A DNA stretch of 64,000 bases from Pholiota molesta. Lineage: Eukaryota; Basidiomycota; Agaricomycetes; Agaricales; Strophariaceae. The notes beneath the pieces are model-generated. The model did no database searches, had not been told where the DNA came from, and was given only the letters and a program-made list of their open reading frames with translations. Location of the stretch: the NCBI GenBank assembly GCA_014925825.1, contig JACGCK010000169.1, forward strand, positions 1 through 64,000. Direction: 5' to 3'. A program made the translations under genes and the position numbers. This document shows positions 9,530 through 64,000 of the stretch, piece by piece (within the stretch, counting starts at the first letter, position 1; the number at the start of each line of letters is the position of its first letter).

Positions 9530-10882
9530 TGTCGTCAGCCGCCATCCAGGACGATCGACGCAGATGGGCGAGGGGCCACGAGAAGGCGGGCTCGTCGGCG
9601 GGCGATGCGTCGAGCAGTGTGGGGATCGGTGGGCGCAGGTGTCCGGGGGTGGCAAGCGGTGTGTACGTGCCCTGCTGTGCAAGTGCTACGCGCGCCGCCG
9701 TCGTCAGCGTTTCCTGCGGCGGTGAGACGTACCGTATACGTGGCCGTGCGCCGTATCGCGCCCGCTTTCTTCCGCCGCGTACGTCCCAGGCACGACGTCT
9801 GACCTCTGGCTGACTTGTGCCGTCGCTAGGCCGTGCAATCGATGTCGAGGGCGTGAGCAAACTTCGGGCTCCATCGTCGTTGTCTTGCGAACATTGTTGC
9901 ACATGACAATGGGGGTCAAAAACGCGGATGCCGCACGAGGTGGTGGGTGATGGGTGGCGGGAACTGCATGGCCGAAGTAAGTGCGAGTTCGGTCCAACGG
10001 AAGTGCACTTACGTTGGCATCATCCACCAGCACCGAACAACGTCTGGCGTCAAATGGATCGTCGTGGATGGCGAGAGGGTGTTCGTGCCCTGCGGTGCCA
10101 AGGCGTCGTCAACTTGACGGGCAGAGCGTCGTGATGAGCTCGGACGTACCGCGTACGCGCCCTCGCGCCCGCTCGTATGTCCCTCCACGCCCATCCCATC
10201 CGCGAGTCGGCTAACCACTCCGTCGCTAGATCCTGGAATCGCCGTCGAGGTCGAGGAGAGTCGGCGAGGGCGAGTTCAAGCGCGAATCAGCGGCGGGTTC
10301 CATCGTCGTCGAGTCGTCGACGGCTGCTATGACGTTGTGATCGTATCACGCGTGTTCGGGTCGAGGGTTTGGAGAGCGCGAACACCATCGACGTTGAAGG
10401 TGGTGTGGTGACGACGAGACGCGGCGCTAGTAGCTAGCATAGGAATGTTGGATGAGAACGGAAAGTCAGATAGAGGGAAGATGGTCAATTTAAGCATTCC
10501 GGCGCACCTTTTGGACTGCTGTTAGCCAGTCCCAGCCTGTTTCCTTGATTATCTGCCCCTCGAGTCCCATAGCTTTCGACCGGCCAAAAGCACTGCTTGA
10601 AAAAGGTGCGGTGGTGCTTCGTACTTGCGGTCATCGTCACCGTCGTATGCCGTTGACAATTAATGACAAATGCGCTGGGAAGTAGTATTGATATGCCTCG
10701 GAGACCCAGGGCACATCGAGGAGGGAAGGAGGTGTGTATGCGTCGTCCGATATGCCTAGGCGACCCAGGGCACATCGATGATTGAAGGAGATGTGTACAC
10801 GAGCAGTGGGTACCAACGCCGGTTGCGTCAGATCACGTGAATTATTCCCGCGCTCAGCCAACGCGACAGCACTCGATGAGAG

Positions 10883-12498
10883 TGGGGGTGGGCATAGCCC
10901 GGTTGCGCGGCGTGTTGATTAGTAAGCAGATCAGTCGCGAAAAGTTGACCGATCGCTATCTTCGCTCTTGCTACCTGTCTTTACCTCTATACACGCCCCG
11001 CTCTGCCTTGTTTTCATCATCTAAGCATTGAATTTGATCTAAGGTATGGTACACTACATTAAGAAGGCTGTATTCACTGTTGATATTGCTAAATATCAGT
11101 GAAATTGTTGTAATCATATCTCAATGGCCATCTCCACCTCTTCCCAGGTATCTTCGATGTCGCCATCCTCTGGTTCATCCAATTTCTCAAGCTCACTGAG
11201 GCTCTTTAGGATGGATTGCTGAATAGTTGCCCCTCCTCCATCAATCCAGTCTTGATATCGCTTTAAGGAAGCTCGGAGAAGAATTTCTTTGTTGTTTCGG
11301 TTACCCCAGTCTTTCTTCGTCTTTGGAAGATCAGTATCTCCACTGTATTTCTGAAACAAATCGAGCTGTAAGTCCATCTCTTTTACAATTAGAGTTTTGA
11401 CCTGATTTTCGTGTGAAATCAGCTTGCTTTGGCAGAACTCCAAGGCAGCACGTATGGTGGCAAGCTGCTGCCGCTTTTTATCTGCGTCTTTGTCTCGTTT
11501 CGATTGGGCTAGCCGTAAATCGTGTTCAACCTGCTCCTTTCGTTGTTTAGCCTCCAGGCCACTGGAGTCCACCTCCCGAGCTTTGCGCATGATATATTCA
11601 TGATCGTCTGCTTGCATCAAGGCATCCATAAATACCTGTGTGTTATTCCAGTGGTACGTCGATCCCGCATTGAACTGGTGTAATGTCAGGCAAGCTGCTT
11701 CGCGAAAGCGAACGCGGAGAGCCCCTAATGTTCCCTCGTTATGATCATTTGTTGCAGGCATCCATGCAAGTGCCAATTGGTCCGGAGTAGCGCTGTCAAT
11801 CAAGCCACCAGGTGCAAATTCCGATGTAAACCGTCTCCAGGCTGTATTCTCCTTGTTATTATGTCTGTTTAACCTGGCCTCTTTCAGCTGCTTCTTCCTT
11901 CCCTCCGACACTGATTTCTTTAAACCCATTATGGATCAATTATAGCTGCATTAAGTTGATTATGGTGCTTCCTTGGGCACAAAGTATTAGAAAAATAATT
12001 GGGAGCATAATAAACTACTGGGACATACTTCTAGTAGTGTTTCGAGCGAGAAAATAAGCTTAGATATGTTCCGAGGCCAGTTTTTCGACACTCATCACCG
12101 CCTTGCGACGCGACATGTCACGCGATGTCACACTCTAATTACGCGCCCGGACTGAATGGGATATAAGTTAGCACGAACTCACTCTTATGGTAAAATTTGA
12201 CCTCAGACAGTTTTTTTGCATCAAGTTTCGAGTTTTGGCCAGAGGATTTGCCTGTCGTGATCCTCGTTATTGAGATAGGGTGGGTGATCATAAGAGATAA
12301 CATCCTTCCAACGCGTCATTCACTTATTCCTCTGGCCAACCTCTTTATTGTAGACTTCTTACATCTGTAGATACATAAAATATATGGTAGACTTTGTGGA
12401 ACATAAGTTATTGGAGTCGGACACCTCGAGAGTCTGCTCTGAGTGACGCCAAATACTGGCAAACAAAACGCCGGCAACACGGGCAATGCCCACCCCCA
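10883..12498. mobile_element. 1.6 kb nested TIR element with 7-bp target duplication
   Basis: Both ends read inward as TGGGGGTGGGCAT followed by GCCCG and a GC-rich tail ending near CGGCGT, giving imperfect inverted repeats of about 35 bp. ATGAGAG lies immediately outside both ends (10876-10882 and 12499-12505). The matching place in the other arm of the host repeat reads ATGAGCG without an insertion, which is a direct empty-site comparison. The element carries one minus-strand reading frame (11114-11929). A 7-bp duplication does not point cleanly to one superfamily, since hAT, P and KDZ-type elements usually give 8 bp. Confidence 0.8.
11114..11929 (-). CDS. Transposon-associated protein fragment, 271 aa
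   Basis: This is one uninterrupted frame inside the nested element. The central part (about residues 60-90) has a stretch beginning HNEGTLGALRVRFRE and continuing into LHQFNAG, then a charged lysine/glutamate-rich coiled-coil-like region (about 120-190) and an acidic C-terminus. I recall similar HNEG...LHQ(F/Y)NA segments from repeated, unnamed Agaricomycete proteins that sit in DNA transposons, usually as the C-terminal part of a longer protein. The frame starts 10 bases inside an AT-rich leader and no catalytic DDE domain is visible, so the element is probably an internally deleted derivative. The function is unknown. Confidence 0.55.
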   Translation of the reverse strand: MGLKKSVSEGRKKQLKEARLNRHNNKENTAWRRFTSEFAPGGLIDSATPDQLALAWMPATNDHNEGTLGALRVRFREAACLTLHQFNAGSTYHWNNTQVFMDALMQADDHEYIMRKAREVDSSGLEAKQRKEQVEHDLRLAQSKRDKDADKKRQQLATIRAALEFCQSKLISHENQVKTLIVKEMDLQLDLFQKYSGDTDLPKTKKDWGNRNNKEILLRASLKRYQDWIDGGGATIQQSILKSLSELEKLDEPEDGDIEDTWEEVEMAIEI

Positions 12499-13055
12499 AT
12501 GAGAGAGGGACTGAGCGACGGGATGAGCGACGTACTGATCTCGCGATCAATTTTCCAAACAGGTGAATGAGATATTTTCGGTTTTATTTGTGAAACCGGA
12601 GAATGAATGAGAAGAATGAGTGATTCAGCAATTAGGAAAATATTACCCCAATACTTGAGGTTTTTTGTTCGTCAAAATGTCTCCTTTACGAATAGATATC
12701 CTAGATCACTAAATCCATCGGTAAATCTGACAATAAACAGACACAAAAAGGTCTGTTGTACGTGACATTTCCTTATTATTTGCCTGGTCCAAAAATAAGC
12801 AATTTTCCCATTTTGGTAAAGTCTTATTGAATGTCACCTTTATTGTTTCTTTTCCGTTGGGAGAAAGTGACGGAAGATCTCTCAATTGTCTCGTTGAAGA
12901 ATTTTTGAACAATTTGACATATTTAGGCGTTATTCTGGGGTCAAAAATCTCACTTTTTACATACATTTCCCTACCCAATAAACGTATCGTACAAATGTCA
13001 CAAAACGTCCAAAGATTTTTCCACGTTTGAAAAGATCCCCACCGCAGCAGTGAGA

Positions 13056-14607
13056 ACGCGTCGATTCAGAAGACTCGAGTCGTCGAAGTTACCCGTTCTT
13101 GTCACTAGTCACTGCTCTGCCATCCCGCCACCAGCCGCCGCTTCGTACGCGTTTTGGTCATGACTGTTGCACGATGCCTCTTCAGTCGCTGGATTGTCTG
13201 CGCTACATCAAGCTCTACGTGAACGTTGCAACCTGAACAGAAACGGCTGGATCTTATGGTTTCAAGCTCAAACTTGAGTCATACGCTGGTCAATACCCTC
13301 AGCACCATACAGCGGTCAAACATAGGAGTTCTCTCTAGCTTTATCGATCATCCTTCTAGAATCAGTATCTGATGAACCAGAATTCACAACTTGATTGTTC
13401 TTCCAATTCTACCTCTACCAATCACACCTCGAGTCGTCTTAGCTTGGACTCAAGCATTGAGCACAAGCCCCTCAGCGGTAACCTCTCGGACGAGTTTCGA
13501 GTTGGAAGTATACCGAGTGACTGGCGCGACGCAATAGCCCGAGCTACTGGCTCATTCATTTCACGTTTTCTGCCGGACAATTACACCTCAGAACAATTTC
13601 ACTATCGGCGGCTACAGAGGGCCACTGTCGAACTTGGATTTATATTACGCAGTTCACAGCAATGGACTAATTGTACCCATCATCTCTTCATCTCTGGAGT
13701 GCTCCGAGCCTAGGGGCGATAACCTTCTATAGATGTCCGTATGATGATCATATTCCTCGTTTCAATGAACTGTAACTCGCTATTTTTGGCTCACAGCTGT
13801 CTATCTCGTCTCAAAATATCTCTCTCTTCAACCTTGGAGTTTGAAATATCGCGCTTGTGGCAAGCTAATTGACGAAAGCAAGCAAGCCGGCGATGGTGTG
13901 TGATTCCCGTTCTCCACTCTATCATGATCAAATTTGTGGCTGGATGATAATCACACGTCATGAATTATGCATGCCTGCCCCATAGCCTGCTTTTTTCATG
14001 CACTCTGGTACTTCGGTTCCCTGTGTGCACTCGAGATCTACATCAAGGCCTTTTCATAATGCCGAGACACATGATCGCTGAGTGAAAGGCGCTTTCGCTA
14101 AGGTCACCCACGATCCCCATGAATAATGAGAAGGGATGGACGGCGTACTAAAATTATACAACCACAGGATAACCCATTCGAGCTCTCAACTGGTTTAGGA
14201 CGTGAGATCCGAAATGCGTTTTACAGCCTGCTAATTCGGACATTATTTTCATTGGCGCCTATCCGATAAGGCTCAAACATTTCTGGTTCCGACGGCTTGC
14301 TCCACTCGCAAGAAAAACTAGAATTGCGATAACAATGGCACTGCTATCATGATCGTTCTTATAAGCGCCTTGTTTCTGCCTGCTTTCAAACATATTTTTG
14401 GAGCTATGTCAAAGGTGGTGCTGATGACTTACCGCTCAACTCTGGTGAGTTTCAATCAAATATCGGCATCATAACAGCTCGCTCGCTGTCGGGCTTGAAT
14501 AAACTAATCTGGAAAGTTGTTCCCTCCTGACATATGAATAGTTCACTCGAACTCGTACATATAGAGCAAGCGCCAAAGTCGAAAGGGTAGTCCAAACCTC
14601 ACCTACA
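13056..14607. other. Intergenic stretch, one unassigned small frame
   Basis: No recognised gene. A 113-codon plus-strand frame at 13372-13713 begins with a serine/threonine/asparagine-rich segment and continues with a more ordinary composition. It may be an exon of an unannotated gene, but I see no homology signal or convincing splice partners. The rest is AT-rich spacer. Confidence 0.35.
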
Positions 14608-15946
14608 ATGTTCCTCGCCTCCGACTTGACCAATGCCACCACTGCGGTGCCGATTTACGACTCTACACCACTCATTTACTTCCCGCACGAATTGGCATAT
14701 CAAATCAGCGTCGCGACTTATATTCATATTGGATGCATGGCGGTAAATATTAATTGCTCTCGTTTCCGTTCAGTGAACATAACTTGACGTGTATTTTGTC
14801 CTAGGTGCTAGTTTGGGACGTCATTGACAATCTCAAGGGTGATTTCAAGCTTTTATTTTACCACCGAATCCAACTGCCGACTATTATCTACTTTATCAGT
14901 CGGTACGTTGTAGTTGATCACCTTTATTACTGACATTGACCGACTGTATGCTTTGATATCAGAATCACCCTTTTGGCCTATACATTAGCACGAGCAGTCC
15001 TCCTCACTGAGTCGGGACCAACTAGTTTTTTTACACATAATATTGACAATATCTCTGTAGCGCTGCCGGTGAATGACTGCGGGAGAATGTACGACGCTAT
15101 CAATGCCCTTCTCGTCATATTTGTGGCTGCGACAACGGCGATGTTCTATCTCCGCGTTTGTGCCGTATACTGCATGAACAAGTTTATCATCATCTTCTAC
15201 GGTCTTCTCTGGCTTGCTGTACTCGCCATGCTTTTGACTCTTCCAGAGACGTTTACCGCAGTACATGTTGCGACGACAGGCTATTGCATAGAGAGCATCA
15301 AAGGCCCTTTCCTTGGTCCCACTACCGTCGTACTCATGGTCAACGACGCGGTGGTTTATGGCGGTATCGCGTATCAATTATTCCACATGTATGCGGAAAC
15401 CACTCCAAACGCCAAATTCTCATTCCTCACATCCGGTCGCGCTCTGCCTATAATTTCGAAGGCATTATCAAGGACAGCCAGCTTTACTTCATGTAAGCTT
15501 GTTCTTCCATTCTGTTATGTTTCAAGGATTGAATTCATTCCGCATATAGGGTTGTTCTTGTCACAAATCCATTCCTTGTTGCATGCGTCTATGTGTTCGA
15601 AGGACCACTTAGCGTCATGTTTCTTGTATGCCATCTTGTGCTAGTGAACATCCTCTCGTGTCGCGTCTATCACAACATGAAGCTGGGGACCACTGCCGAC
15701 ATTGCGGTGCCCAAAAATGTACCGCCGAATTCTGGAAATGGATTGGCGGTATTCCTCAGTGCGGAGTCCACGATCAGCCGAGACAGAATGCCTTCGGTAT
15801 GGAGTGGTAGAGCGACAACCGAGTCCCACGGCATAGAAAAATCCACCACGATGAGTTATGAAGCAGCTTCAATCCATGCCAGCGAGACAGAGGCAATGTC
15901 TAGTTTTACTGACGTGGAGAAGGCTCAAATTCCGAGGGCTTTCTAA
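14608..15946 (+). CDS. DUF6533-type serpentine (7TM) membrane protein
   Basis: Four exons can be read: 14608-14742, 14805-14902, 14963-15492 and 15550-15946, with GT-AG introns of 57-62 nt. The N-terminal part has the family pattern of a helix, then WDV(I)DNL and a tract leading to FYHR and a YFISR turn. Several hydrophobic helices follow, and a CRVYHN motif sits before a hydrophilic serine-rich tail. These proteins are abundant and mostly uncharacterised in Agaricomycetes, and a sensor or receptor role is only inferred from the 7TM layout. Near 15464 the frame must gain one base (from SKA to IIKDSQLYF) to keep the conserved sequence, so the gene is either newly broken or carries an assembly deletion. 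It is the only ordinary cellular gene among the repeats of the first 29 kb. Confidence 0.75.
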
Positions 15947-16567
15947 AAGACTTGATGAGAATCTAAACATATTTTTAAATGTTCCACGTACCAGTCGTTT
16001 CATTTTCTATAGTAATAATTTGATGATTTATTTAACTGGTTTATTGACTTGAGCTTGCAAGTTGGCTAGTCTTGAACTACAAGCATCGATGAGTATGTGG
16101 ACATGATAGATTAACATAGTGTTCATTAGGGCAACTAGATTTTCGCGTGAGTTAGCGTGGCTAGCGTGTAGCTAGCGTGAGTCACGTGCACGCTAGCCCA
16201 CGCTAGCCCACGCTAGCCCACGCTAGCAAACATCATTTGCCCAATTCCCGACGCTGTGTGGCCTCGAGAGTCGGTTCAACGGTACTAGGTGTATTGTAGA
16301 TATACTAGCCTCGTAAAAATATCACTTTCCAAATTTCTTTGGGCCAAGAGAGTCAGAAAATGGATTATCTAGTAACTTATGGACTTTAAATGCTCATTAT
16401 CTCTCCTAAAACACTTCCGCATCATTATTTCTCTTGATATTCAGTCCAATAGATAATATGCTCTCCAAATATATGTTTTGTTTAGACGTTTAGTTCATGT
16501 AGCGGGCGCACAGACCAGAATTAGTGTTAAAACAAATCTGTCACACGTTACATTATTTCTGTGACAA
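15947..16567. other. AT-rich spacer with one CACGCTA cluster
   Basis: Apart from the CACGCTA cluster at 16146-16227, this stretch shows no coding or RNA signal. It ends at the TRIM-like element. Confidence 0.4.
16146..16227. repeat. CACGCTA array, partly inverted
   Basis: TAGCGTG copies (the reverse complement) at 16153-16180 face CACGCTAGCC copies at 16189-16227, meeting at a central GTCACGTGCAC. The right half has an exact 10-base step. It is the only array in the window with both orientations. Confidence 0.8.
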
Positions 16568-16998
16568 TGTAAGAGGGCCGTACTTCTGCAACATTAGCCA
16601 TTACACCAAAAGGTCAGATAACTGAATGAATAATCATTCAGCCAGCCAGAAGTATATATGCTGAGTAAGTCCGCCAGGCTTACACCCTCCCAGGCTTTAA
16701 GAACTTTATTCCCCGGTGGTGGGATTTCTTTTTGGGATTAATTGTTCATATAAGCGACCCCAGGGAATCGAACCCTGCCCTCTGCCTCCCGCTACACAAG
16801 GATGTCAATCTGCTGGCAATGTATTTTGCCTCCCACTAGGATTGATCCCTCGCTGCTGGCAGAAGTTATTCATTCAGTTAATGTAAGAGGGCCGTACTTC
16901 TGCAACATTAGCCATTACACCAAAAGGTCAGATAACTGAATGAATAATCATTCAGCCAGCCAGAAGTATATATGCTGAGTAAGTCCGCCAGGCTTACA
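16568..16998 (-). mobile_element. TRIM-like mini LTR element, 431 bp
   Basis: Two 117-bp direct repeats, at 16568-16684 and 16882-16998, appear identical. They begin TGTAAG and end CTTACA, as retroviral-type LTRs do with TG...CA ends. The internal part is only 197 bp. Read on the minus strand, a GGGAGGG purine tract lies directly before the downstream repeat, and near the upstream repeat a stretch with TGCCAGCAGCGAGGGATCAA resembles a tRNA-derived primer-binding site with part of a T arm. Flanks read GACAA (16563-16567) and GACAC (16999-17003), a 4-of-5 duplication. This fits a terminal-repeat retrotransposon in miniature, a non-coding element moved by a full-length partner. Identical LTRs suggest recent insertion. 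Confidence 0.75.
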
Positions 16999-17327
16999 GA
17001 CACATAATTATTCGCAATGCAACCAACAGATTTTTTGTCATCCAAGACAGCCAAATAGATCCATGGAAAAATGTAAGTATTAAATGGCTATCTGTCTGTT
17101 ACGTTTTTGTGTCTCATAGGTGAAGACGTTACATAGAATTATAGACTGGTTGAACTGTTTAGTATACTCAGAAGGTCTAACCAAACAAGGATAAACATCA
17201 CTCCAAGCACCGCAAATCGTCACGCTTATGCAGAATGATGTATATATGATATAGTAACAATGCCCATGACTTCCTGCATTGCCCTAATTTAATTTATATG
17301 AAGATATCCTCAGTTCTTTATATGAGG
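16999..17327. other. AT-rich spacer
   Basis: No coding, RNA or repeat signal was seen between the TRIM-like element and the CACGCTA array. Confidence 0.4.
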
Positions 17328-17561
17328 CCACGCTACCTCCACGCTACTTCACGCTACCTCCACGCTACTTCATGCTACCTTCACGCTACCTCCACGCTAC
17401 TTCACGCTACCTTCACGCTACCTCACGCTACCTCACACTACCTCACGCTACCTTCACGCTACCTCATGCTACCTTCACGCTAATGCACGCTACCTCACGC
17501 TAATGCACGCTACCTCACGCTGCTTTTCCCACTTCATGCTACTCCACGCTGGGCCACGCTT
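17328..17561 (+). repeat. CACGCTA array, 10-11 bp step
   Basis: About twenty copies of the heptamer CACGCTA (some CATGCTA or CACACTA) are separated by short CCT, CTT or ATG spacers, so the step is 10 or 11 bases. All are in the same orientation. The array ends about 240 bases upstream of the start of the large transposase gene. Confidence 0.85.
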
Positions 17562-17798
17562 AGAGTATATATACAGAGAAAACACATACTTATCCATGCT
17601 TATGAGCGCCTAAGACAAATATATCAGAGTAATTGTTACTTGCCTTATATAGTCATGTATGATCGAGTCAACCATATTTGGAATATAGATCAAGTGATTG
17701 TTTTTTTTTCCTTTTCGAGAGATTCCTCATCGCTACCGTCCTTTGCCTGATAAAATTTAACTCATCTTCTGGAACGCATATCATTACCTCTCCCAGTA

Positions 17799-20700
17799 AT
17801 GCTGGTAAGTCAAAATATCACGTTTTTCGATTCTTTAATTCACTCTGACTTGATATAGGGCTTTATACACCATCTTTTAAATTACTTCAAACCTACGAAT
17901 CAAGTTAGCAACCAAGTTACTACAATACAATCACAACTTATACCAATTTATGGTCCTCATGGTAGCCAATAACTCTGCTGGGATTTGAATTAAACCAACT
18001 CATTCCCATTTATTAGGAAATTTAACTGGATATACTCAGCCTGGACTGTCGTATCAAGACACCTCCAAGATCACGAGCAGTAAGTGAAACCTTCCATCTC
18101 GCTGACGCCATTTATGCCTAAGGTCTCCGTAATCTGTAACTAGATGCTCAGCAAGAAAATTCAACCTTGTACACTCGTACTACCGATGGTACCTTTATTC
18201 CTGTTTCATCCCCTTCCACTGGACCAAACCCTCCTTCCGCTCCTCCTCCTCCATCACTGCCGGCCCCTGGCACTGTCTCGCCTCCTTCAGTGCCACCACC
18301 TGTCATCTGGGATCCATGGCCAGATGGATTTATTGAACAAGACTTCACACATGAAGAATTCAAGGCCACCGACAATTTTCACAGTCACTGGTGCTGGAAG
18401 TATAATGGCGGATATACCGGTCAGATAAATGCAGAGCAATGGCAGGATGGACTTACAAGAACAAGAAGGTGCCGTGGTGTTATTCTATGTCGAAACGAAG
18501 ACTGTGAAATTGTTGTACGGCGGCCTACCACCGACAAAGGCTCCCATAACAAGCTTCAAATACCATGTAAATGCGGGGCGGAACTCTATGAAGAAGAGTG
18601 CGGTATCCTTTTGACCACATGGGAATGGAAAGGTGGCATACATTTCGTTCATCCAGGTTATCACCCACATCCGCGGCATCCTCCTATCCACCTTCTCCAA
18701 CATGAACGCGCACAATTCAATAATATTGTGAAACACCACCCTCAAACTGGACCTCTAGGACTCCTTGTGGGTCCACCTGAACTTGGCGGGCCTGGCAAAT
18801 CAGTTGCGGATATTTCACCTGCCCTTTCCAATCCAGATCGCATTAGCTACGAACGAACGAAACTGAAGAAAACCATAAATGGAACAGGAACAGCGGAGAC
18901 CTTTATCCAAGCTTTTGAAGACTTCGACACAGAACATCCCGGCTTTCTTATTCACTCATCCCTCGGAAAAATCACCGTCTTCTGCTTCCAGTCACCGTTG
19001 ATGCGACAACAGCTTTTCAAAGAGAATCTCTTGGAGGGCCCTATCAATGGAATGGTCAATGATGGGGCACATGGTTGGTGGCGAGATCGCGGGGCAATAT
19101 TAATGGTCACCTCATCCTACTGTCCACTTCTTAACTGTTGGATCCCTGGCGTTTTTTCATATACAAATGGCGCAAGTGCTGAGCACTTCAAGCATCACTT
19201 CCGTGCAGTGTTCCAAAGCATCGCCGAGGAAGCAAAAGCCAGGTCTATCGAAGTCGTTGACCGTTTTTTTGCTGGGGTACGTTTTTAGAATGTTAATATC
19301 TATATGACCATCTTATAAACCCATTTCCTAGGTTATGGACTTTAGTGAGGCTGAACGCTTAGGCTTTATTGACGCATTCACCGAATTCTGGCAACTTCAA
19401 CCGGGAAATTCACGTTCCATTGACGAGCTCAAAGCTGCTGGTCAGGCTTTGCTCAAAGGATGTAGGGAACATTTCAGAGCAGGAGTTACCCGAGTCAGCC
19501 GTATCAGCGCTGCTGTAGACCCATCTATGGCTGATTATTTCGTTTCACGAGCTCTTGCCCTTCTCGATGCTCCCAATAGCCAGGAGTTCATAGCCCGAGC
19601 AGAACTGGTCATATCCGAATATCCCAAACTCACAGCATGGATGAAATGGTGGACCCGACCGGCGCACACTGCAATGCTTTGTGATTCCGAACGCAAAATG
19701 GATATCGAACTCTGGGAGAGCCTTCCAGACACCAATAATGCGGAAGAGGCGATGCATTGGAAGCTCTATAGTGCCTGTGGTCGTGACCATAATGTATTCG
19801 GAGGATTAAAAGGCTTGTATGCGGTCGCCAAATATTATGAGCGGATGTATAACTCTGTTTTAAGTGCGTGTTTTTGTTATAACAAATTCGGTGCTACTGA
19901 ATACCCAACCTGTGATTTAGCTGGTATCAGAACACATTATGGGGAAAAGGAGCCATGGAAAGTTTTGGCTGATAATATTGGACGAACCAAAAATTCACGG
20001 GCCCCCGATCCTTCAGCCAAAAAGAGAAAACGTAATGATGGGCGAGCTCCAGATACAAGCAAAGAAATCCTCAAAAAACCTACTAAACGCAAAAAAGTCA
20101 ATAATGACGGCCGCCCACCGGATACTGTTAAAGCGCTCAAGCTGACAAAATCATCAAAGAAAGACGCACACCCACAAAAACGACAAACGCGAATCCAATC
20201 TAGAAAACCCAAGCAACCCAGCCCATCCTCCTCAGATTCCGGCACTTCCTTCAATGGTGATTCAGATACCGATAGTACCTCTGAATTTCCGGTATCACTG
20301 GCAGCCCCCCATGGATCCGAATTTGGCCCACAGAGCTATCGATGGGACAAAAATTCTTGCTGGCTTGACACCTCGAGCTAATCTATATCGCTTTATCCAC
20401 AGGGGGCCTAGAGGAATTATCAACGCTTTGTAAACATCTCCCGAAAACCTCAGCAATATTGACCTTGTATGCTACCCTCGCAGGCCGTCAGAAGCTCATG
20501 CATGCTCCAAACATATCAGGCAAAATAGCTCAAACACTATCATCACAGCGCGACAAGTTCCGAAGGGAGCTAAGGCAGCGTCGATTAATTGCACCCATTG
20601 GGAACTTTGACTCCCTTTGGGTAAGTCATTTAACATATATTCTCATGTTCAAATGCCTTACCATACCTTTTGTGCATAGGTTTACGTCGGTGGTCTTGTC

Positions 20701-53169: not shown

Positions 53170-54744
53170 TTACCCTGTCTTTGCTTTCAGCTGCCTCCAC
53201 AACATCACATACATCACACCTCCGACAGCCACGACGACTATCTGTACGATAGCATAGTTCACCATTCCCATCTTCACTCCAGCGCCTCCGAGAATAGAAC
53301 CAGTTACACGGCCTACAGTATTGCTGTATTGAATGGCCAAACTGATCCTCCCGTTCCATGTGTCGGGAGTTGCTTTGAGAGCAAACTCAAGGTACATGTA
53401 CTGGCTAAATTAAACCCAAGGGCAATAAGGAACCAACAAATGAACAAAGATCCAACAGTGACTTTGTTGGCGAGTAATGTGCTAAGCATGATAAGAAGGC
53501 CGACGGCGCCCGTGAACGTTCCAACGGCGAGAATGACTCGGTCCTGAATGCGCCGAGCATAGCGTATGTTTAGAAGAAGAAAAGGGAAGGAAGAAATCCC
53601 ACCCAACGCAATGAGATTCCCTGCGTCGTACGGTGAATATCCAAGAGCTTTGGCCGTGAAGATAGGAATATTGGCTTCCCAGGCGTTAAGGACAAAAAAC
53701 ATGTCATCGCAAAATAGCACATGCATACTATGACACGCCATTGGTGAGACGATACATGATCATACATTGCCTCGACTGTCCGGTTAGGTGGCGTGGTTGA
53801 TGCTATTAATTCGAGAGGTTCTGGATGAGGTTGTGGAGGAACATCTTCAAAAATCAGAGCACTCAGAGCTCCAAATATGACCCAGGTCATGGCCATAACC
53901 CAGCCAGGGCTCGTCACCCCATTAAACACCCTGTTTTTGAATCCAATTTTATAGAGGAGACCTCCAAAGAACGGGCCGGTGGAGAAACCGAAGGTCTGGC
54001 CGATGATGAGCCAACCGGCGAGTGTGGTTCGCTGTCGGATGCCAACGATACGACCGTCCGAGCAGTAACGTTTACTATACAGGAAAGCGATGAAGCCAAA
54101 TCCGGAGACGATTCGACCGAGCAGGATCATATAAAGCCAATTGACTCGGTAGGCGAGGGCATATATGATGTTTCCTAGTATCGCAGCGCTGTATGCAATA
54201 TTCAAGGGCTTGGCATATTGTTCTGCACGTCCATAAAATAAGGGTCACTATACATGAGAATTTCATTTTCGAGATACTTACTTCCGTCTAACCTGGTGAT
54301 AAAGATCAGTCCAATCCCAGAAAATATAGTTGGGATTCCGATGGTCAACCCCGCAAAAATGGCCGTTCCTCCAAGGCGCTGAGTATAAACACTCGCAGAA
54401 GAGACAACTATAAAGAATGAAACCTAGATAAAGTGCAATTTCGTCAGTTTCATGTCATTCTGAGGTCACGTCGAATTCTGCACCTGAAATAATGCATTGC
54501 CTCCAAGAATGATAAACAAGGATCTCAGACTTGGAAGCTTGAATTCAGTATTTTCCGTTTGATCGTCTTCGCTTGTGATCTCCGAGTCAACTTGACGGGT
54601 AAATTCCTGTACATTCGAAGGAACAAGAACGTCAGGCCTGGGTGCGTAGACCGGTGAAAGGTTCTTGGATAATTTTGCGAGGTCGCTGTAAGCTAGTCTG
54701 GTGTAGCCAACCACAGACGGTGATTGTAAGCTTGGAGTAGTCAT
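53170..54744 (-). CDS. MFS transporter (drug/organic-solute type)
   Basis: The gene reads right to left from 54744. A hydrophilic N-terminus of about 75 residues (MTTPSLQSPSVVGYTRLAYS) is followed by LPSLRSLFIILGGNALFQV. Helices run through GLTIGIPTIFSGIGLIF, a loop, and LGRIVSGFGFIAFLYSKRY. QRTTLAGWLIIGQTFGFSTGPF resembles motif C of MFS exchangers. The C-terminal half has GYSPYDAGNLIALGG and IQYSNTVGRVTGSILGGAG, ending LKAKTG. The substrate is unknown. One base is missing in the run of six T near 53696 (frame FFVLNAWEANIPIF) and one in the CCC near 53366 (LPDTWNGRIS). A glucose- or proton-coupled role cannot be inferred. Confidence 0.75.
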
Positions 54745-55224
54745 CGATTCGGAGCCCTGTTAGCTTTTGAGGATCGTCCAGACCGAGCGTAGTCGAAGGG
54801 AAAGATAGAGGGCATAGGAAAAAGTGTCTCAACGGTTGTAAGTAGTCCCGACGAAAGTAAAATTATCGGGCCTGTGAAACTTTGGAACAACCCACTGCAC
54901 GAAGTGATGGATTGATAATTGGTGTCGGGCTTCGGGGTATCTGTGCGGAGCAAGATTAACACATGGGATTCCACAAGATTTGAGTAACACATTCAGTGAT
55001 CACACATCCAAGTCATAGAAAAAAATGATAAGTAAGTGGTATGAACAAAGAACTAACACGAGAGCGTGTAAAGCAAAGCTTTTCCAGTGAATGGGGGGGA
55101 TCGAAAAGGAGACTAAAAAATGATCATGTAGAATACAACAATAAGCACTTCCGGGAAGTCATAGCCGATCATAACTATTATTTCAGTGCAGAATAAAGAG
55201 GGCGGACAAATGGGGCAAGGAAAC
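54745..55224. other. Intergenic
   Basis: This stretch holds the promoter of the MFS gene and the 3-prime end of VPS35. Short minus-strand frames (54741-54992, 54632-54832) look like leader shadows. Confidence 0.4.
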
Positions 55225-58200
55225 TCATCGAGAAATGCCCATCTTCAGCAGTGCGCCGACAACATCCACCTCATCCCACCGCGAGTCTACTGCATCTGTG
55301 CCTTCAGATGCAGCGTGTTTCCTTCGCTGGATGTAGACAAGGGTATTCCTGAAGTGCTTCGTGATCATCTCGGGTGTTTGGACGCCTTCTATGAGACCCG
55401 GTGGCGCTCGCTGTGATGGGTGGACGTCGGGTGAGGAGATATTGTCGATGCTTGACGTGATCAACTCCACAAGGCTGTTAACAAATTTAGGGGCGACCTA
55501 GAAGAAAAATGAATACAAGGTATGTGGCTGAAAGAGTAATCATTCTTACTGCTTGGGCGCCGCGATCGAGGTAATACAGGTATTGATCGAGGGTATCGCA
55601 ATACAATTGCACAGTTACGATTTCTTCAATCGCGGAATTTGCAATCCGCAATGATTTCTGCAGGCATTCTAAAACGCGCTTACTATCTTGATGGGGATAC
55701 TGTCCACAAAGTTAGTATTCACTACAGGGCACAATGTGCAGACACTTACAGCTTTGACTGTTCCCTCTGCATCCTTGTCTACAGGAGGTTTCTCAACGAC
55801 AGCCGGTTTCTCCCCAGCCTCCGTGTCCCCTTCTGCTGGAGGCGGAGCTTCTTGCCACCAGAGATGGCTAGCTAGACCGACGGCCGTTGCTTGGTGGCTC
55901 TTCTTCAAGAGTTTAGCACCATGGAGTGCCGCCTTCGTGATCAGCGTATCGAAATTGTCGATGTTGAATACCTTCGCGCCTGCCAGCGTACCGATGATAA
56001 GGGTGATCGCTTGCAGCTGTGCTCGAGACTCGGAAATGTTGTCCTCGTACACGCTGAAGGCCTGCACGTAGAAATCGTAGGCGAGATCTTCGAAGCCGCA
56101 TTCATCTGCGATTTGTGCAGAGAGAAGGAAGAGCCGTAGAGCAATGGTCGGCGCCTCCACAGTTGTGGCTAGGATTGAGGTCAACTGCCGAACGAATTTG
56201 AGGATCGTCGAAACTTTAGTCTCCCATTCAGGTTCCTGATTTCGGATATGAGCAGTGAAGGCGCTCGCATAGAGGATTGAACACATACAACATGTTCACG
56301 ATTCTTGTAGCGCCGGCATAACTTAATAGAGGAGGTGATTAGCGCAGGGAACGTGAACCGCATTCTTTCTCCGCCGAGATCGAAGTGCCGGCGAGCGATT
56401 TGGAGGAGCTGATAAATTATGTGACTATTATTATTCGAGTAGAAGGGTAATGTCAATAATCGACTCACTTCGAATTGAGTGTCCAAAGACTCTGAGCGGA
56501 ACAGATGTACCATCCGCGCCACCCAGCCTTGCTCTTCCGCCATCTCTTCTCTTTCCATGAAGTAAGGCCCTTGTCTCCGCACTTCCCTGATATTTGCTTG
56601 TTGGCCATTAGGCAAGGGGGGTGCACCAGAGTCTGTCTGGTCCTTAATCAGAACATGACACAACTCCAGTACACCATCGACATCCTCGGGTGCCTCGATG
56701 ATAGTTTCGTTCTTGAGGACGGAAGAGACGATTGAGTGCGCAATCGAGCGCCGTGTGGTGAAAAGTTGTTTCGTTAGTAAGGGAACGTAGTTGGGGATAG
56801 CAAGGAGTGTGAGGACGGATTGGTAAGAATTTATCGGGGCAACGAGTAAGGAAGCGAGATTTGAGGTGGTTTGTTGGGCATGTAGATCCGGACTAATATG
56901 TAAGTTAGTTGATGAATAGTTGGAAAAGATAAGGTATGCATACCTATCAGAGTATTCTTTGATCTTTTCCGCAGCAAAACCGAGCACCTGGTCGACATAC
57001 TCCAGGCGGTCAGGATAGCAGCTTAATGACAAGTTGGTCAATGATACGAATAGTGCTGTGATGTCTTGGATAGAGAGATCAGGACGAGCCTAAGGAAATG
57101 CAATAGGTTAATAAGCGTGCTGATACAGAGAAGGCCCACTTGCCTTGATGAGCTCAACGACCTGTTTCCAGAAGACTTCGAAGAGTTGTACATCTTCAGG
57201 AACGCCTCGGAATTTACGCACGGGCGTTTCCTCCTTGCCTGTAGTAGGCACTTTATCATCAGAAGCATCGATCGGCGGCGGCTCTGTGACAGAGGTTGCA
57301 TCGGATTCATCTGTCGCAGTCGTCGGCGTGGGTGGTTCACCCCAGGAGGGCGTTTCCAAAGAGGGCGACGTCGGGGATGCTGCGCGGTATGCGCCTTGCT
57401 CGCGTGCTTTAGCTTTCTGCGTTTTCACCTTCTCAGCCAGGCGACGCGCTGCGGCTTCTTCTTGACGCTTCGTTTCCTCTGGGTCCTCGCTTTCTGCTTC
57501 TCTTGCTGCATACGAGGCGAGACGGTCGATTAATGCGATTACGATTTGTTTAATGTTAACTTTGGGATGTAATTGGGCGGTAGCAGATAAGAAAGGACCG
57601 AGAGTGTGCAAGTGGAATTCATCAGTAAAGACCTAGGAGACAGGTTAAGTATACAATCCATCCAGATTCCAGGAGGACACACCTGAATGACGACCTCCAT
57701 GAGGTATTCCTGGGCTATTACATCCTTGCAGTTAACTACTTGCTCCAGAATACTTGGCAAGATAGTTTTCTGGTACATGTCCAAGTCCACGCCATCCAAC
57801 TGACTCAATCTAACAAGATTGGTCCCTACAAGGATACGGAGTTCGCGACGTTCCATTTCACGCTTTTCGCGATCCCTCGAATGTCCTTGATGTTGGAGCC
57901 GTACCCAAAGTTTGTTCATCTCGATGAAGTTGGTGAGGACGAATGTTATGGAATCTTGGAGGTTTCCTGCAGGACTAAAAGTAACGTATTCAGATAACGC
58001 AGATAGAATTATGAACCAAGAGAACCATACCCCGGTTCTAAACCAACTGGAAGGTGGTCTCTCGTCTGCCCGCTCAAATAGTGTCGGAGGAACAGTCCAC
58101 GGATAGGATGCAGTACACCACGCGACATTTCCATCATGTCCTTCATAATTTCCTTCACCGGCGCGTCAGGAATCGACATGTATACAGAGCCAACAGTAAT

Positions 58201-58632
58201 CATCAGGTATAGCCGGGGGATGATATTGCCTGCGTATTGCACCAGTTCATAGAGGTCTGCCAGATGGTGTCGCGATTGGGTATGTGCCTCGTATAAGTAA
58301 TTCGATAAATATCGTAAAGCGTCGAATACCGCCATATCTGCATCAGACTGTTCAGACGCCGTGACATTGGACCGCAGCAGCAACTCACATAATTCATAAT
58401 ATTGTTTGGGCGACAGAGACGAGGTCCGCAATTCAGCAAGCATCAAGCTTGCACTCTTCAGAGCGTCCATGAGTTGGTCCAACTCCTATGATAATTGTGA
58501 ATAGGGAATCCATATGATACACCAACAGGAAATATGGCGTACGAGGTGCCGCTTCATCTGTTGGACCTGTATTTTGACGGTATTGATAGCCTCGCTCAGA
58601 AGCTTGCCCTCCTCCACCGCTGGCTGCGCCAT
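55225..58632 (-). CDS. VPS35, retromer core subunit
   Basis: The gene starts at 58632 ([20 protein letters not shown]) and runs left through about ten exons to a stop at 55225. Conserved VPS35 blocks follow in order: [18 protein letters not shown], the PRLYLM-type motif that contacts VPS26, then [20 protein letters not shown] and GLFLRHYLS. Next are [32 protein letters not shown], a charged low-complexity insert (57250-57500), and the C-terminal alpha-solenoid blocks [21 protein letters not shown] and [14 protein letters not shown]35 is the scaffold of the retromer that recycles cargo from endosomes to the Golgi. The reading frame is intact over the whole gene, unlike several neighbours. The Asp/Glu/Ala-rich insert is longer than usual. 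Confidence 0.93.
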
Positions 58633-59944
58633 GGTAGTAGTTGTGGTAGCCAGTGCTGGAAATGTTGGGGGATGGAGAGCAAGAGAACGATGTCGGTGGC
58701 AAGTCGAGACTCGACATTGGCGGCCAGGGCGCACGAATCCTGTTTGCACACGTTGGGGCCATCATTTGTCAGCTCTCCCATCCACCTTTCCAGAAGTCGA
58801 GACTTCACCTTGCTCTTACCAGTTACCAGCTTGCATTCCTTCACTCGTTGATCTCCAAGCTTGTCTCTCCACGGCTCCTTTCTATCCTAAAGTTCGTTGA
58901 ACTGATCATGGGAGGAAACTTCAAAAGTCTTTTCTACTGGAACTATCAGTGATCTGGTGAAATTTTGGTGGGATGGTGGCAGAACCGACCCATATTTTCC
59001 CAATTGCCATGCTCGTGTTCTAAACCACGAACGCAAATGCTGGTACGAGTGATATGGCGCCATTAGCTGGGTATATATTTGCGCCAATTGCATGACACAT
59101 TAGAAAGACATTGGCCGCTGTTGTTCAACGACTTTCTCCTTATGTCAATTTGACGAGTCTTTTATGGGAATTCACTTATCGGATTACAGATAATACTCGT
59201 CTCCTGAGTCACCAGGTTATACCAGTGAAGACGAAGAACATCGCGAGGTACGAAGCCACATGTCATTATTGTTCTCATGCCCATTCTAATGTTAAAACTT
59301 GACAGTTTCGTCTACTTTCACCCACGTTTCTTACACTATGACTATTATCAGGGATAAAGATTCATGATTCTGGACTCTCAGACTGAGCGCGCTTGGTGGA
59401 ACTCAACATACACAATGCGCTGAGCCATTAACGCTCTTCTCTATCCAAGGGTTTCGGAACCTTAGGACCGTTACTCGACCCCTTCTATTATCTTGCCGAC
59501 AACCAACGGAACAATCGAGTTCTCTGCCGGTACCTATCCTTCTTTTGTTGTGCGTTCCCCAACGTGTGCGCTGGATATCGTCCTGTGTTCCGTGTGTCCT
59601 TCGCTTGCGAATCTCGTCTAAGTATAGTCGGTGACTGGGATTCAACCTCAGTCCTCGGTGTTCAAACTTCTAATGAGGACATTACCCATGAAGTCTATTG
59701 TCGGGGCACCTCAAATTTCTACTACATGTCCGCTCCGAAACCCAGGTTCTGCCGACGTACTCTACTGTAAACAATTACAGGGTCTGGCTATTGTCTAGCG
59801 CATCTCATCTACATATCGAAGCACGTTATTGGGGTGTATAAAAGGTCTACTGTTTTTCGAGAGCGCCAGTAGTTTGGCCACCCAGTCCTACAGTCATACT
59901 TTCGAAGCTCATCTGTCCACCGCTAATTTCAGCAATCAGAAATT
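58633..59944. other. Divergent intergenic region with pheromone-gene promoter
   Basis: No further gene is recognised. A TATAAAA box at 59837-59843 lies 108 nt before the ATG of the pheromone-like gene, a spacing usual for strongly expressed fungal genes. The VPS35 promoter lies at the left end. Confidence 0.5.
59837..59843 (+). promoter_or_regulatory. TATA box of the pheromone-like gene
   Basis: TATAAAA stands in a GTGTATAAAAGG context and is the best TATA match in the surrounding kilobase. The distance to the ATG at 59945 allows a leader of about 75 nt. Confidence 0.5.
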
Positions 59945-60049
59945 ATGGACTCTTTTGCCGACTTCATTGCTGCCATCGACTCTGCCCCCGTTCCAAATGA
60001 CGAGGAGAAGCAGAGTAACAGTGGAAATGCCTACTGCGTCATTGCCTGA
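59945..60049 (+). CDS. Lipopeptide mating-pheromone precursor-like, 34 aa
   Basis: The 34-residue frame starts MDSFADFIAAIDSAPVPN and ends GNAYCVIA. The last four residues form a CaaX box (Cys31-Val-Ile-Ala), the farnesylation and carboxymethylation signal of basidiomycete pheromones. The short length, MD(S)F start, acidic middle (D19, E20, E21) and small polar mature region match known precursors. Cleavage near the EEK at 20-22 would give a peptide of roughly 9-11 residues ending in farnesyl-cysteine. Such peptides signal between mates through Ste3-type receptors. No STE3 gene is visible in this window, so it may be a satellite pheromone gene or the receptor may lie beyond the edge. The frame is too short for automatic callers and overlaps a longer meaningless frame. 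Confidence 0.8.
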   Translation: MDSFADFIAAIDSAPVPNDEEKQSNSGNAYCVIA

Positions 60050-60251
60050 GGAACCCAATCCTCAAGGAGCCCATACACGGGGCCTCAATCCCTCATCATC
60101 ATCATCACACCACCATGTCCGTATTCCATCATGCCACTCCTTCTAACTGAAGCTAATCCCTTAAATTTTTGTAGCACCTTCGTTGCTTGCTATCACTCAT
60201 TATTCGCATCTTGCTATCACTCATTCGCATCGTTATCGTTATTACCTCCTC

Positions 60252-60275
60252 CATCATCATCATCATCATCATCAC
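60252..60275 (+). repeat. (CAT)8 microsatellite
   Basis: Eight CAT triplets stand in a pyrimidine-rich stretch, with a shorter CAT run near 60088. Both are 3-prime of the pheromone-like gene. Confidence 0.85.
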
Positions 60276-60799
60276 TGTTTATTATGCATCTCACCCTTTT
60301 CCATCATGTCCACGAGTTGAAACATATTTATCGACCTTGAACACATTTTTTGACCAATGCATTTGCTGGCATATCTATTAGGAACATAGTCATTTCGCCT
60401 TCATCAATATCACTACGTTCAATCTGTATCATTCGACGTTTCCTAGAAGGTATATTTGTAGTAATAGTACTACCGTCGCTTTCTATTTGACTTCTTTATC
60501 GATCGACTTGAAATTATCATGTACTAAGGATTTCGCCGAGGAAACGGAATGCAAATGTTTTTTTTTTTGAGTTGAACAAGTAGTAAATCATCCCGGTCAT
60601 CACATTTGCTCTAAAGTGACTTGAACTGTAGTCTGACTGGAAACAAAAGACGCTGCTATACGGGTATCAAGCTCGATGTGCTAACACCTACCTAGTTAAT
60701 TGTGCGCAAGCTACAAGGTTGACTTCAAATCAGCTAGCGCTGCGGCACATGAAAGCACCGTTTGCATTTTTTTTTTAAATTGCCTAATAGGAACGCGGG

Positions 60800-60815
60800 C
60801 ACTGGCATGCCAGTG
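60800..60815. repeat. 16-bp perfect palindrome
   Basis: CACTGGCATGCCAGTG reads the same on both strands. It could be a dimer-binding site, but no gene start is adjacent. Confidence 0.7.
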
Positions 60816-61093
60816 CATTCGCTAAATAATGGTTACAATCGGTATGCTTCCGAGCAACTTCCGAGCGGTATCTACACTTATTGTATTTTCATGGGAACTA
60901 TCTTTAGGGAATACGATTTATTGTTATTGGACACCCTTTAAAGAACAGCGAAGATTACGGTATGTAGGATAAGATTTTCCCGAGAGTTTACCGCAAAGAC
61001 TCCTTGTTTTGGAGGGCTCTTTGGGTGCCAGGGAACGTTTGTCAAAATAGTCGGTATCCGTGTAGAAAAAGTTGATACTGAAGAGCGGCGCAA

Positions 61094-61177
61094 GGCGCTA
61101 TAGTGTAGTGGTTATCACTCGAGATTCTGATGTTTACAGATGTTCTCGAAACCCAGGTTCGATCCCTGGTAGCGCCT
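61094..61177 (+). tRNA. tRNA-Gln(CTG) with 12-nt intron
   Basis: The acceptor arms GGCGCTA and TAGCGCC pair fully. The D arm is GTG...CAC, the T arm is CCAGG-TTCGATC-CCTGG, and the anticodon stem is CGAGA/TCTCG. The loop reads TTCTGA, then TGTTTACAGATG, then T. Removing the 12 bases after position 37 gives anticodon CTG (Gln). The intron position is canonical for eukaryotic nuclear tRNAs. Internal A-box and B-box sequences are intact, and a TTTTT stretch about 20 nt downstream can end RNA polymerase III transcription. Confidence 0.9.
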
Positions 61178-61475
61178 TGCCAAAGAAGTTGAACCGTTTT
61201 TATTTTGCAGAAATATCTGGACATAATACGTTTGATTGAGTCTTTGAAGTTTGGCATCTATTCAAGACTCAAGTTCTAGTTAATAAATCTTACAATTTAT
61301 AGCACCGTGCGTCGTGTCACTCGTGTGTGCCTTGTAATATTGACCCATCCACTTTCGGCGGTACATATTTACTTTGTCTTGGTCAGCCAAACATGATCAT
61401 GTATGAAATCACCACCTGGTGCCTCTGCCACGTCTTAAACCTCTAGAAATTCGTCCTTGATCTCATTCTTCCACC
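61178..61475. other. Spacer between tRNA and GET2
   Basis: It holds the polymerase III stop signal near 61197 and the GET2 promoter. No other feature is seen. Confidence 0.5.
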
Positions 61476-62705
61476 ATGTCAGCGGCAGCGCGAGCAGAAG
61501 CTCGCAGAAAAGCAATCCTTTCGCGCGGAGGCGACAGACTTGCAAAACTCACCACGTCGGCGCGTGGACACGAGGGGCCGTATCTCCATGATGGTACGCA
61601 CTTACTGTTCTCCAACACCGCATCTTTTCATCGAAAATTCGTATGTAGATCCGCCGGTCCCAAATCTGCCAACTACGAGCACCCGCAAGTTTCTAGGGGA
61701 AGAGAGCAGTGATATGCCCTCGAGCTCGCTGAGGAGCCGCGCCAGTCTGTCCCCGTCGCCGAGTCCGCAACCTGCGCGCACGACGGCCACGAGCGCACCA
61801 CGGAACGCCAACGTGTTTGAGGGCCTCGCGGCTAACGCCCCGGATCCGTCTGTATGGAGCTCCGAGCAGCAGCAGCAGTTCATGCAGGCTTTGATGAACG
61901 CCTCGAGTGGGCCAGGCGGCGCGTTTCCTCAGTTATCATCCGACGCGGATTCAGGTGTTGCTCAGGACATGTCAATAGGCGCCATTGATAACCCGTTCGC
62001 TGCGCTGATGGGGTCGCAGGCTCCTGGAGGCGCTGGGGGTGGCGTATTCCCGCCTTTCGGGCCAGGGATGGAAGGGATGGGCGCTAAATTTCCAGGCATG
62101 ATGGAGCCGCCGAAGGAGAAGACCAAGTTGCAGAAGATGCTGCCTTTATTGCATCTCATTGCGATGTGGTGTATGCTTGCGTATTTCGTGCTGTGGGGCG
62201 AACCCAATGTGCATCGCGAAATAACTGGAGAGGATATTTCGTGGAATACGATGGGACTCTGGAAGCGATGGGCAAGTCTGGGTCAGCGCAGTCCTCTGCT
62301 GGCGACTTCGATGGAGACGTTCAAGATTCATGTTGTGGTGCGTATTTGAATTACGATGATCTGACTGTGTGGAGCCTCGCGTTGACCATCCTTATACAGC
62401 CGTTCTTCTGGGCATTTACCACTCTTGAAATTGTATTGCACTCATTGCGTATATTTTCTGGTTTCGTGAGTAATGTGGCAGCAGTTGATATGTTCAATGC
62501 TTATTTCTCCCCATCATAGGACTCTATTCAACCTCCAACGCTCTTGGCGCTTGCTCTACCACACCTGCCGCCGCCACTACCCTCCCTCATCGTTTACACT
62601 ATGAAATACATGCAAATGGGTTCCCAATTTCTCGATGATTTGTCGGGTCTTGTGGTGGGCATCGGGTTCATCATCTATTTCTCGGGTTGGATAGCGCAGA
62701 CATAG
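61476..62705 (+). CDS. GET2, tail-anchored protein insertion receptor subunit
   Basis: Exons 61476-61593, 61649-62337, 62400-62465 and 62520-62705 give a clean 352-aa frame. The N-terminus MSAAARAEARRKAILSRGGD is the basic Get3-binding helix (RERRKxKI-type) of Get2. A long low-complexity cytosolic linker with Ser/Pro and Gly/Pro stretches follows, then PPKEKTKLQKMLPLLHLIAMW and two further hydrophobic segments (VPFFWAFTTLEIVLH, LVVGIGFIIYFSGWI). This three-helix layout is that of Get2/CAML. With Get1 the protein receives tail-anchored clients from Get3 at the ER membrane. Confidence 0.85.
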
Positions 62706-62810
62706 ACGAGCAACATCTCACTTTTTCTGTGACACCATACTCTCCTGCATTAATTTGTATATTTACCGATAAATGATAATTTTGGAGTATCTCGTCCAGT
62801 GGAATGTAGT

Positions 62811-63697
62811 CTAACTAGTAGTTGCGGATGGCGAAGCCGACGCGTTTGAAGGTGTTGAAGGTGAAGCATCGGCTTTAGCATTATTTTTCTTCTCCTTCCG
62901 TTGGTCGGCTTTCTGCTGGTTCGCTGCGTCCTTCTTTGCCTTCTCTGGATGGGCCTGCAGGTATTCCGCTAACGTTGGCAATTTTTCCCCAGTCTTCGAG
63001 GGTTTCGCTTTCAGTTTGCGTTCTTCAATTTCGTGTACGTCCTCGCCAGGGAGTATCGGCAGGCCCGCGTTCTTGCTGGAAAAGACATGCCTCTGCCATT
63101 CTTCACCGCCTGTCAGGTTCATTAGCTCCTTCGTTATTGAGGTCGACCACTTTTCGTTCATATCGAGCTTTTCCACTTTGCCGTCGACTGTATACGCGGT
63201 CCACGAGTTATGAGAAGGGTGGTGTGGTGTGAGATTGAAAGAGAGCGGGAGAGGCGAAGGAGAAGGAAGGGAGGATATAGAGTATGAGAGCGAGACAACG
63301 GTGAAAATAGGGCTTCGTCAACGCACCGAGTTCAACCTCCATTTCCGGTCTCCATCTCTCGTCTGGTGCTTTCGGTACCTTCTGCACTTCGATATCCAGG
63401 TTGGGATTCGCATAACGTATTCGTGGCAGATGATTCTTCACGAAATCCCTATCAATAGCAAAACGGACCAGAGCACAAGAGCAATACCGAGGAAGCGATT
63501 CATCAACGGTCGGCTCTTTGAAACATGGAACGAAGGCCGAGGACTCACTGGGCACCGAAGTGGTCGCCCTTGGCTGCGAGGGAAAGGCGCAGACGCTTCA
63601 CAGCCGGCAGGACGAGTTTGGGAGGCGCGTTTAGGTGGGATAGCAGCTTGCTGAGGCGCACAATTCCCCCTGGGATTGTCTCTGATCTTGGTGGCAT
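62811..63697 (-). CDS. Mitochondrial ribosomal protein, L51/S25/CI-B8 fold (mL61/Mrp49-like)
   Basis: Exons 63549-63697, 63327-63448 and 62811-63187 (minus strand) give a clean 215-aa frame. The N-terminus MPPRSETIPGGIVRLSKLLS and the following LRLSLAAKGDHFGAQ resemble fungal Mrp49 proteins. The core HLPRIRYANPNLDIEVQK fits the thioredoxin-like L51/S25/CI-B8 domain. KWSTSITKELM follows, with a Lys/Ala-rich tail that is longer than usual. It should be a structural part of the mitochondrial large subunit. A small-subunit or complex I relative of the same fold is the main alternative. Confidence 0.75.
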
Positions 63698-64000
63698 GGT
63701 AAGGGAGGAGAGTGAAGTGAGGTTCGCGTTCCGACGTCGCTGCCAAGTCCCGAATTTTCTGTTTGCTCGTGTTAGCTGGAGTTACTCCAGGTGACATTGA
63801 CAACGTTGGCTGGGTTCAACATCGTTCAGAGCAATGCCCCAATTCAAAGCTGGAATTTTTGCATCCAACATAAATATAAGAACAAATGAAGAAAAATTGG
63901 GGAATGGTGCCTACCGGCGTCCCAGCTTTTGCAACATGTCATCCTCGGATCTCATCGTTTAATCAAAGCCGACAGAATTATACGTTCTCTTCAAGTTTAT
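63698..64000. other. Right edge, no gene recognised
   Basis: This is the promoter side of the mitochondrial ribosomal protein gene. No further feature is seen before the window ends. Confidence 0.4.

Follow-up and report, generated by a model that had tools for sequence, protein, structure and literature searches.

A 34-codon open frame lies near the right end of the window, the 64,000-nucleotide stretch of Pholiota molesta DNA analysed here, and its product ends in a CaaX box. The first-pass annotation took this frame for a functional gene of a CaaX lipopeptide pheromone precursor, with an STE3 receptor or further pheromone genes possibly just past the right edge of the window. Two questions follow: whether the frame is a gene, and which kind of signal it would encode.

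The peptide gene and its neighbours

The frame, its TATA box and both of its neighbours were recovered exactly where and as the first-pass annotation had described them (table 1). The translation starts with MDSFADF and ends with NAYCVIA; a stop codon stands in frame six codons before the ATG, and the frame contains no further ATG. There is one CaaX unit, and the gene is thus not a multi-unit tandem precursor of the rhodotorucine type. For the possible 3′-UTR intron, the donors on offer are just GTATTC at 60121 or GTCCGT at 60117.

Table 1. Features of the peptide gene and its surroundings, in window positions.
Feature	Position	Strand	Remarks
VPS35, left neighbour	55225..58632	-	spliced model of 1001 aa, PF03635; exon borders approximate
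TATA box TATAAAA	59837..59843	+	108 nt 5′ of the ATG; read from the sequence
34-codon CaaX peptide precursor gene	59945..60049	+	encodes MDSFADFIAAIDSAPVPNDEEKQSNSGNAYCVIA, stop TGA; protein 94% identical to the C69 copy
Predicted N-terminal processing region PNDEEK	59993..60010	+	charged motif before the core, from the translation; use in cleavage suggested by the literature
Predicted mature core QSNSGNAYC	60011..60037	+	same on C78 and C69; borders and modification predicted
C-terminal CaaX box CVIA	60035..60046	+	from the translation; CIIA in the C69 copy
Possible 3′-UTR intron	60121..60174	+	weak donor, then CTAAC and TTTTTGTAG; sequence inspection
GET2, right neighbour	61476..62705	+	spliced model of 352 aa, PF08690; exon borders approximate

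The neighbours were identified by Pfam matches of the spliced models: 868 bits for PF03635 (Vps35) with the first 827 residues, the part of the model tested, and 34.1 bits for PF08690 (GET2), above the cut-off of 25.5. The VPS35 model is 93% identical to two P. molesta VPS35 proteins, the identity remaining below 100% probably because the splice model is approximate. A tRNA gene that looks intron-containing lies to the right of the peptide gene (61093-61178); ARAGORN was unable to name it (anticodon ctga).

The chance expectation was estimated from 60 windows of 64 kb simulated with a first-order Markov model. On average, 0.98 loose CaaX ends on an ORF of 25-100 aa occurred per simulated window; the real window has one. 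Since about one such ending per 64 kb is expected by chance, it is weak evidence alone and was rejected as proof of a gene. An MD..F/L start combined with a strict CaaX end, present once in the real window, appeared in none of the 60 simulated ones; the family across the genome, described below, is stronger evidence than this combined pattern.

No Pfam match was obtained for the window protein even at E 10, so the PF08015 cut-off was not reached; the three paralogues tested all pass this cut-off of 22, with 22.3-31.6 bits. The predicted core has SGN and AYC in common with the published consensus of non-mating pheromone-like peptides and lacks the glycine run; the paralogues have GGSGNAYC.

Second copy and gene family

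The assembly comprises 65.6 Mb in 625 contigs. The window is situated on C78 (96,707 bases), and a second copy of the region is found on C69 (103,433 bases), where positions 9001-19000 are syntenic with window positions 54008-63974 and 95.9% identical over 10 kb. The two versions are most simply, and presumably, two haplotypes of a dikaryon. On C69 the peptide gene is intact at the same place, with no indel in its coding sequence, and its CaaX end is conserved, this conservation being one within the same genome. The two coding sequences differ at five bases, three silent and two replacements: proline to serine in the leader, and valine to isoleucine in the aaX tripeptide that would be removed. 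In this one pair the predicted mature core is unchanged. The silent excess is borderline for the C78/C69 pair alone (p = 0.05). Pooled over four pairs of equal coding length (C78/C69, two C500/C604 pairs and C74/C81, the last only assumed to be allelic), silent changes number 12 at 114.7 sites and replacements 4 at 386.3 sites (Fisher p = 1e-5). The C53/C81 pair did not enter this test, its coding sequences being of unequal length (183 and 189 nt).

The C-terminal unit of the window gene is shared by at least about 20 places, merged from all searches, on 11 contigs (C53, C69, C74, C75, C78, C81, C295, C445, C500, C522 and C604), presumed haplotype copies being counted separately. Ten of these places have one unit and ten have two. 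The protein search of the genome gave 22 matches at E up to 10, the two-unit query 13, and the pattern GNAYC[VIM][VIM] 26, against 0 for the reversed-pattern control. The looser pattern YC[VIM][VIM][AS]-stop gave 30 matches against 16 in the control and is not specific alone; 9 unrelated-looking places and 2 B-locus places were dropped from its matches. The places C445:5947 and C604:882516 are counted from their search matches alone. The C522 member is without the MD.F start and ends with CVIG. Three two-unit places are damaged: C74:5072 has lost the MD.F start, and C74:9100 (L063) and C295:58 (L076) are frameshifted between their two units. Some members of the family are thus decaying. On C78 itself, no second family member was found by the protein search or by the GNAYC, two-unit and looser pattern searches, and the further pheromone genes expected just past the window edge are thus not borne out.

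Of the roughly 20 family places, 15 were examined for a promoter, and 12 of them have a TATAAAA or TATAAAG box at -76 to -114, although alleles and recent duplicates among the 15 are not independent; the box is missing at C500b, C75 and C522. By a strict test, 10 of 16 family places have a canonical intron-like signal after the stop codon, against 3 of 66 control stretches of upstream DNA; two of six B-locus pheromone genes also pass. The window gene and its C69 copy gave no canonical 3′ intron signal by this test, only a weak donor. Upstream of the 15 family places, the search for pheromone-response elements yielded one weak match.

Two profile searches together yielded 131 relatives with E values up to 10 (115 from the first, 16 more from the second), 20 of them above E 0.001; the window protein itself is absent from the 131. 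Profiles including the window protein match two proteins named 'pheromone-like peptide', from Agaricus bisporus (E 5.7e-7) and Pleurotus ostreatus (E 7.5e-5), and a pheromone of Coprinopsis cinerea (E 2.6e-6). The relatives include P0079 from P. molesta and the metagenome proteins P0026 and P0027, identical to C500 members; to judge from such sequences, some of the 131 probably belong to this species or a close one. Of the 130 proteins that end in Cys plus three residues, 129 have an acidic residue no more than 15 aa ahead of the terminal Cys. There are 63 relatives with an internal CaaX-like and a terminal motif, 66 with one motif and 2 with neither, counts that are selected by the pattern used.

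The named species with two-unit precursors are five Agaricales: Hypholoma sublateritium, Hebeloma cylindrosporum, Dendrothele bispora, Tricholomella constricta and Coprinellus micaceus. The two-unit precursors of the P. molesta genome itself (L059, L065, L067, L071, L073 and L077, on C53, C74, C81 and C295) have an internal CVVA or CVVS and a terminal CVVA unit. The spacing between the two cysteines is 23-27 residues in 59 of the 63 two-unit precursors, and there is no constant dibasic spacer. The identity of the 10-residue cores is 0.889 within and 0.593 between genes for 62 precursors (P0032 was dropped, its first motif match being false). Compared with the nearest relative, the within-gene identity differs by only 0.033 (22 positive, 16 negative, 24 equal); relatedness therefore explains most of the likeness of the units, and strong concerted evolution was rejected. 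The internal Cys is lost in two further two-unit records, P0044 and the P. molesta protein P0079, which argues against the internal unit being essential there. In a sub-group (P0127, P0128, P0129, P0132, P0063, P0072, P0076, P0080 and P0103), an internal CVVF, CVIF or CVTF is followed by AK or AR, by its sequence perhaps a basic cleavage site.

STE3 receptors and the B locus

The whole genome contains 36 STE3 matches, all on C17, C593 and C13, which were read as 6, 5 and 1 gene places, respectively; C17:57087-57479 is a partial match only. There is no STE3 match at E 0.001 on the whole of C78 or C69, and the receptor predicted just beyond the window edge was therefore rejected. None of the 11 family contigs is among the STE3 contigs. 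PF08015 gave ten matches: eight correspond to pheromone genes (six on C17, two on C593), and the other two to the paired units of a single family member on C74. The contigs C17 and C593 correspond to the expected B locus in two versions.

Two STE3 genes are alike between these versions (96.6% and 94.2%), and a 3.2-kb stretch around the first of them, receptor included, is 94.9% identical. The remaining receptors have partial divergent matches or none between C17 and C593. Such near-constancy is as expected of non-mating receptors, and the two genes (C17:44027-45067 and C17:47758-48698) are candidates for the non-mating receptors known from other mushrooms and could well be the ones that read a constant peptide, a pairing that we infer. 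One further STE3 gene, C13:311867-312963 (L016, L020), lies outside the B locus and is related to the constant receptor C17:47758-48698; no family peptide was found on C13.

Function of the peptide and known systems

The sequence evidence makes it quite probable that the window gene is functional and encodes a short prenylated signalling peptide of the 'non-mating-type pheromone-like' class, which would be sensed as a mating-type-independent signal. The part of the first-pass reading that stands is the CaaX lipopeptide precursor gene, supported by the family, the presumed second haplotype, the promoter and the homologues. 'Mating pheromone' is probably the wrong sub-type, because C78 and C69 have no STE3 match and the ordinary PF08015 pheromones lie in the receptor clusters of C17 and C593.

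In the maturation of CaaX pheromones, the cysteine is farnesylated, the aaX residues are removed, the new end is methylated and the leader is cut off. The TATA promoter would thus give a short mRNA for a 34-aa precursor, in which Cys31 of CVIA would be farnesylated, VIA lost and the end carboxymethylated. A protease may cut near the charged DEEK stretch, and the exported product would be a farnesyl-peptide of about nine residues, QSNSGNAYC-OMe. An STE3-type receptor invariant between mating types would sense it, as a mating-type-independent signal of self or of the population.

A true mating pheromone, encoded apart from the locus and acting on the B-locus receptor of compatible mates, would account for the MDSF start, the charged motif and the CVIA end that the gene has in common with the pheromones of C17 and C593. 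We regard this as unlikely: the contig is without STE3, most receptors differ between C17 and C593, and the pheromones read on C17 differ from those on C593, whereas the predicted core is the same on C78 and C69. A peptide made alike by both mates cannot discriminate between them, which is why a mating-type-independent signal, for example self-sensing, is favoured. A general signal is also the probable role because the family is scattered apart from the mating-type genes and some of its members apparently have two peptides on a single precursor.

It is distinctly unlikely that the product is a small prenylated intracellular protein, anchored in a membrane and not secreted; a CaaX box by itself does not prove export, but the family retains the arrangement of exported lipopeptides, in which a charged motif and a short conserved core precede the Cys. 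The damage at C74:9100, C295:58 and C74:5072 would suit a relic, an old copy still open and out of use, yet both copies of the window gene are intact, with no indel, the TATA box is kept and the pooled pairs have a silent excess, making a relic very improbable. Against the preferred reading, a signalling peptide independent of mating type, stand the lack of any Pfam hit for the window protein, the core, less glycine-rich than the consensus, and the 3′-UTR intron, non-canonical in contrast to 10 of 16 relatives.

More broadly, we propose tentatively that the Agaricales might possess a dispersed, mating-type-independent lipopeptide family with many two-unit precursors. The internal CVVA/CVVS box would be exposed by cleavage and prenylated, so that one gene would yield two farnesyl-peptides in a rhodotorucine-like manner, read by conserved non-mating STE3 receptors. 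A literature search of little subscription content and partial texts returned no description of a two-unit CaaX precursor in a mushroom, and this architecture may be undescribed there so far. The genome supplies candidates for both sides, about 20 ligand places with similar cores and two receptor genes near-constant between the B-locus versions, and the ligand question is therefore testable in yeast. Screens that discard CaaX frames far from STE3 as false positives, as the available part of PMC8970355 describes, would lose the class of the window gene.

The window gene is a new member of an already known gene class. To judge from its sequences and from the accessible text of PMC8305134, the family fits the non-mating pheromone-like class described there, with the core consensus GGGSGNGAYC / GGGSGNNAYC and cores alike between strains. 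They share a short MD(S/A)F...CaaX precursor, a core with SGN and AYC and the same predicted peptide between versions or strains; the window gene differs in the core and the intron, as given above, A. bisporus ESTs having 3′-UTR introns in genes of this class (same text). The portions available of PMC8161036 and PMC8305134 describe mushroom STE3 receptors of the non-mating kind as orphans or as having no known function, and PMC8161036 brings up self-sensing as an idea for the orphan receptors in Schizophyllum.

Extra unlinked pheromone-like genes are already known, in the sections available, from Pleurotus tuoliensis, with pheromone-like peptides away from matB (PMC5755439), and from Flammulina, with predicted pheromone-like genes and more without a mating role already expected (PMC3140503). 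As in P. molesta, these genes are on scaffolds without the B locus; few are reported there, in contrast to about 20 places here. In Pycnoporus cinnabarinus, seven precursors of 39-65 aa comprise four mutually similar, presumed non-mating ones and three divergent mating ones (PMC4101180, in part), similar CaaX precursors thus standing beside divergent mating ones as here. The B mating-type pheromones (PF08015; C17 and C593) resemble the window gene in the MDSF start of most, the charged motif and the CVIA or similar end, whereas the window gene is shorter, does not lie beside STE3, has no PF08015 score and has the same core in both copies. Multi-unit precedents are the rhodotorucine A precursors of Rhodosporidium and HPP1 of Trichoderma (PMC3068285), and repeats are discussed for the MFA precursors of cereal rusts (PMC10977897), both cited from partial texts. 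The two-unit relatives in P. molesta, with their internal CaaX-like motif, resemble rhodotorucine A and HPP1; the window gene, with its one unit, and the mushroom two-unit precursors, without a constant dibasic spacer, differ from them.
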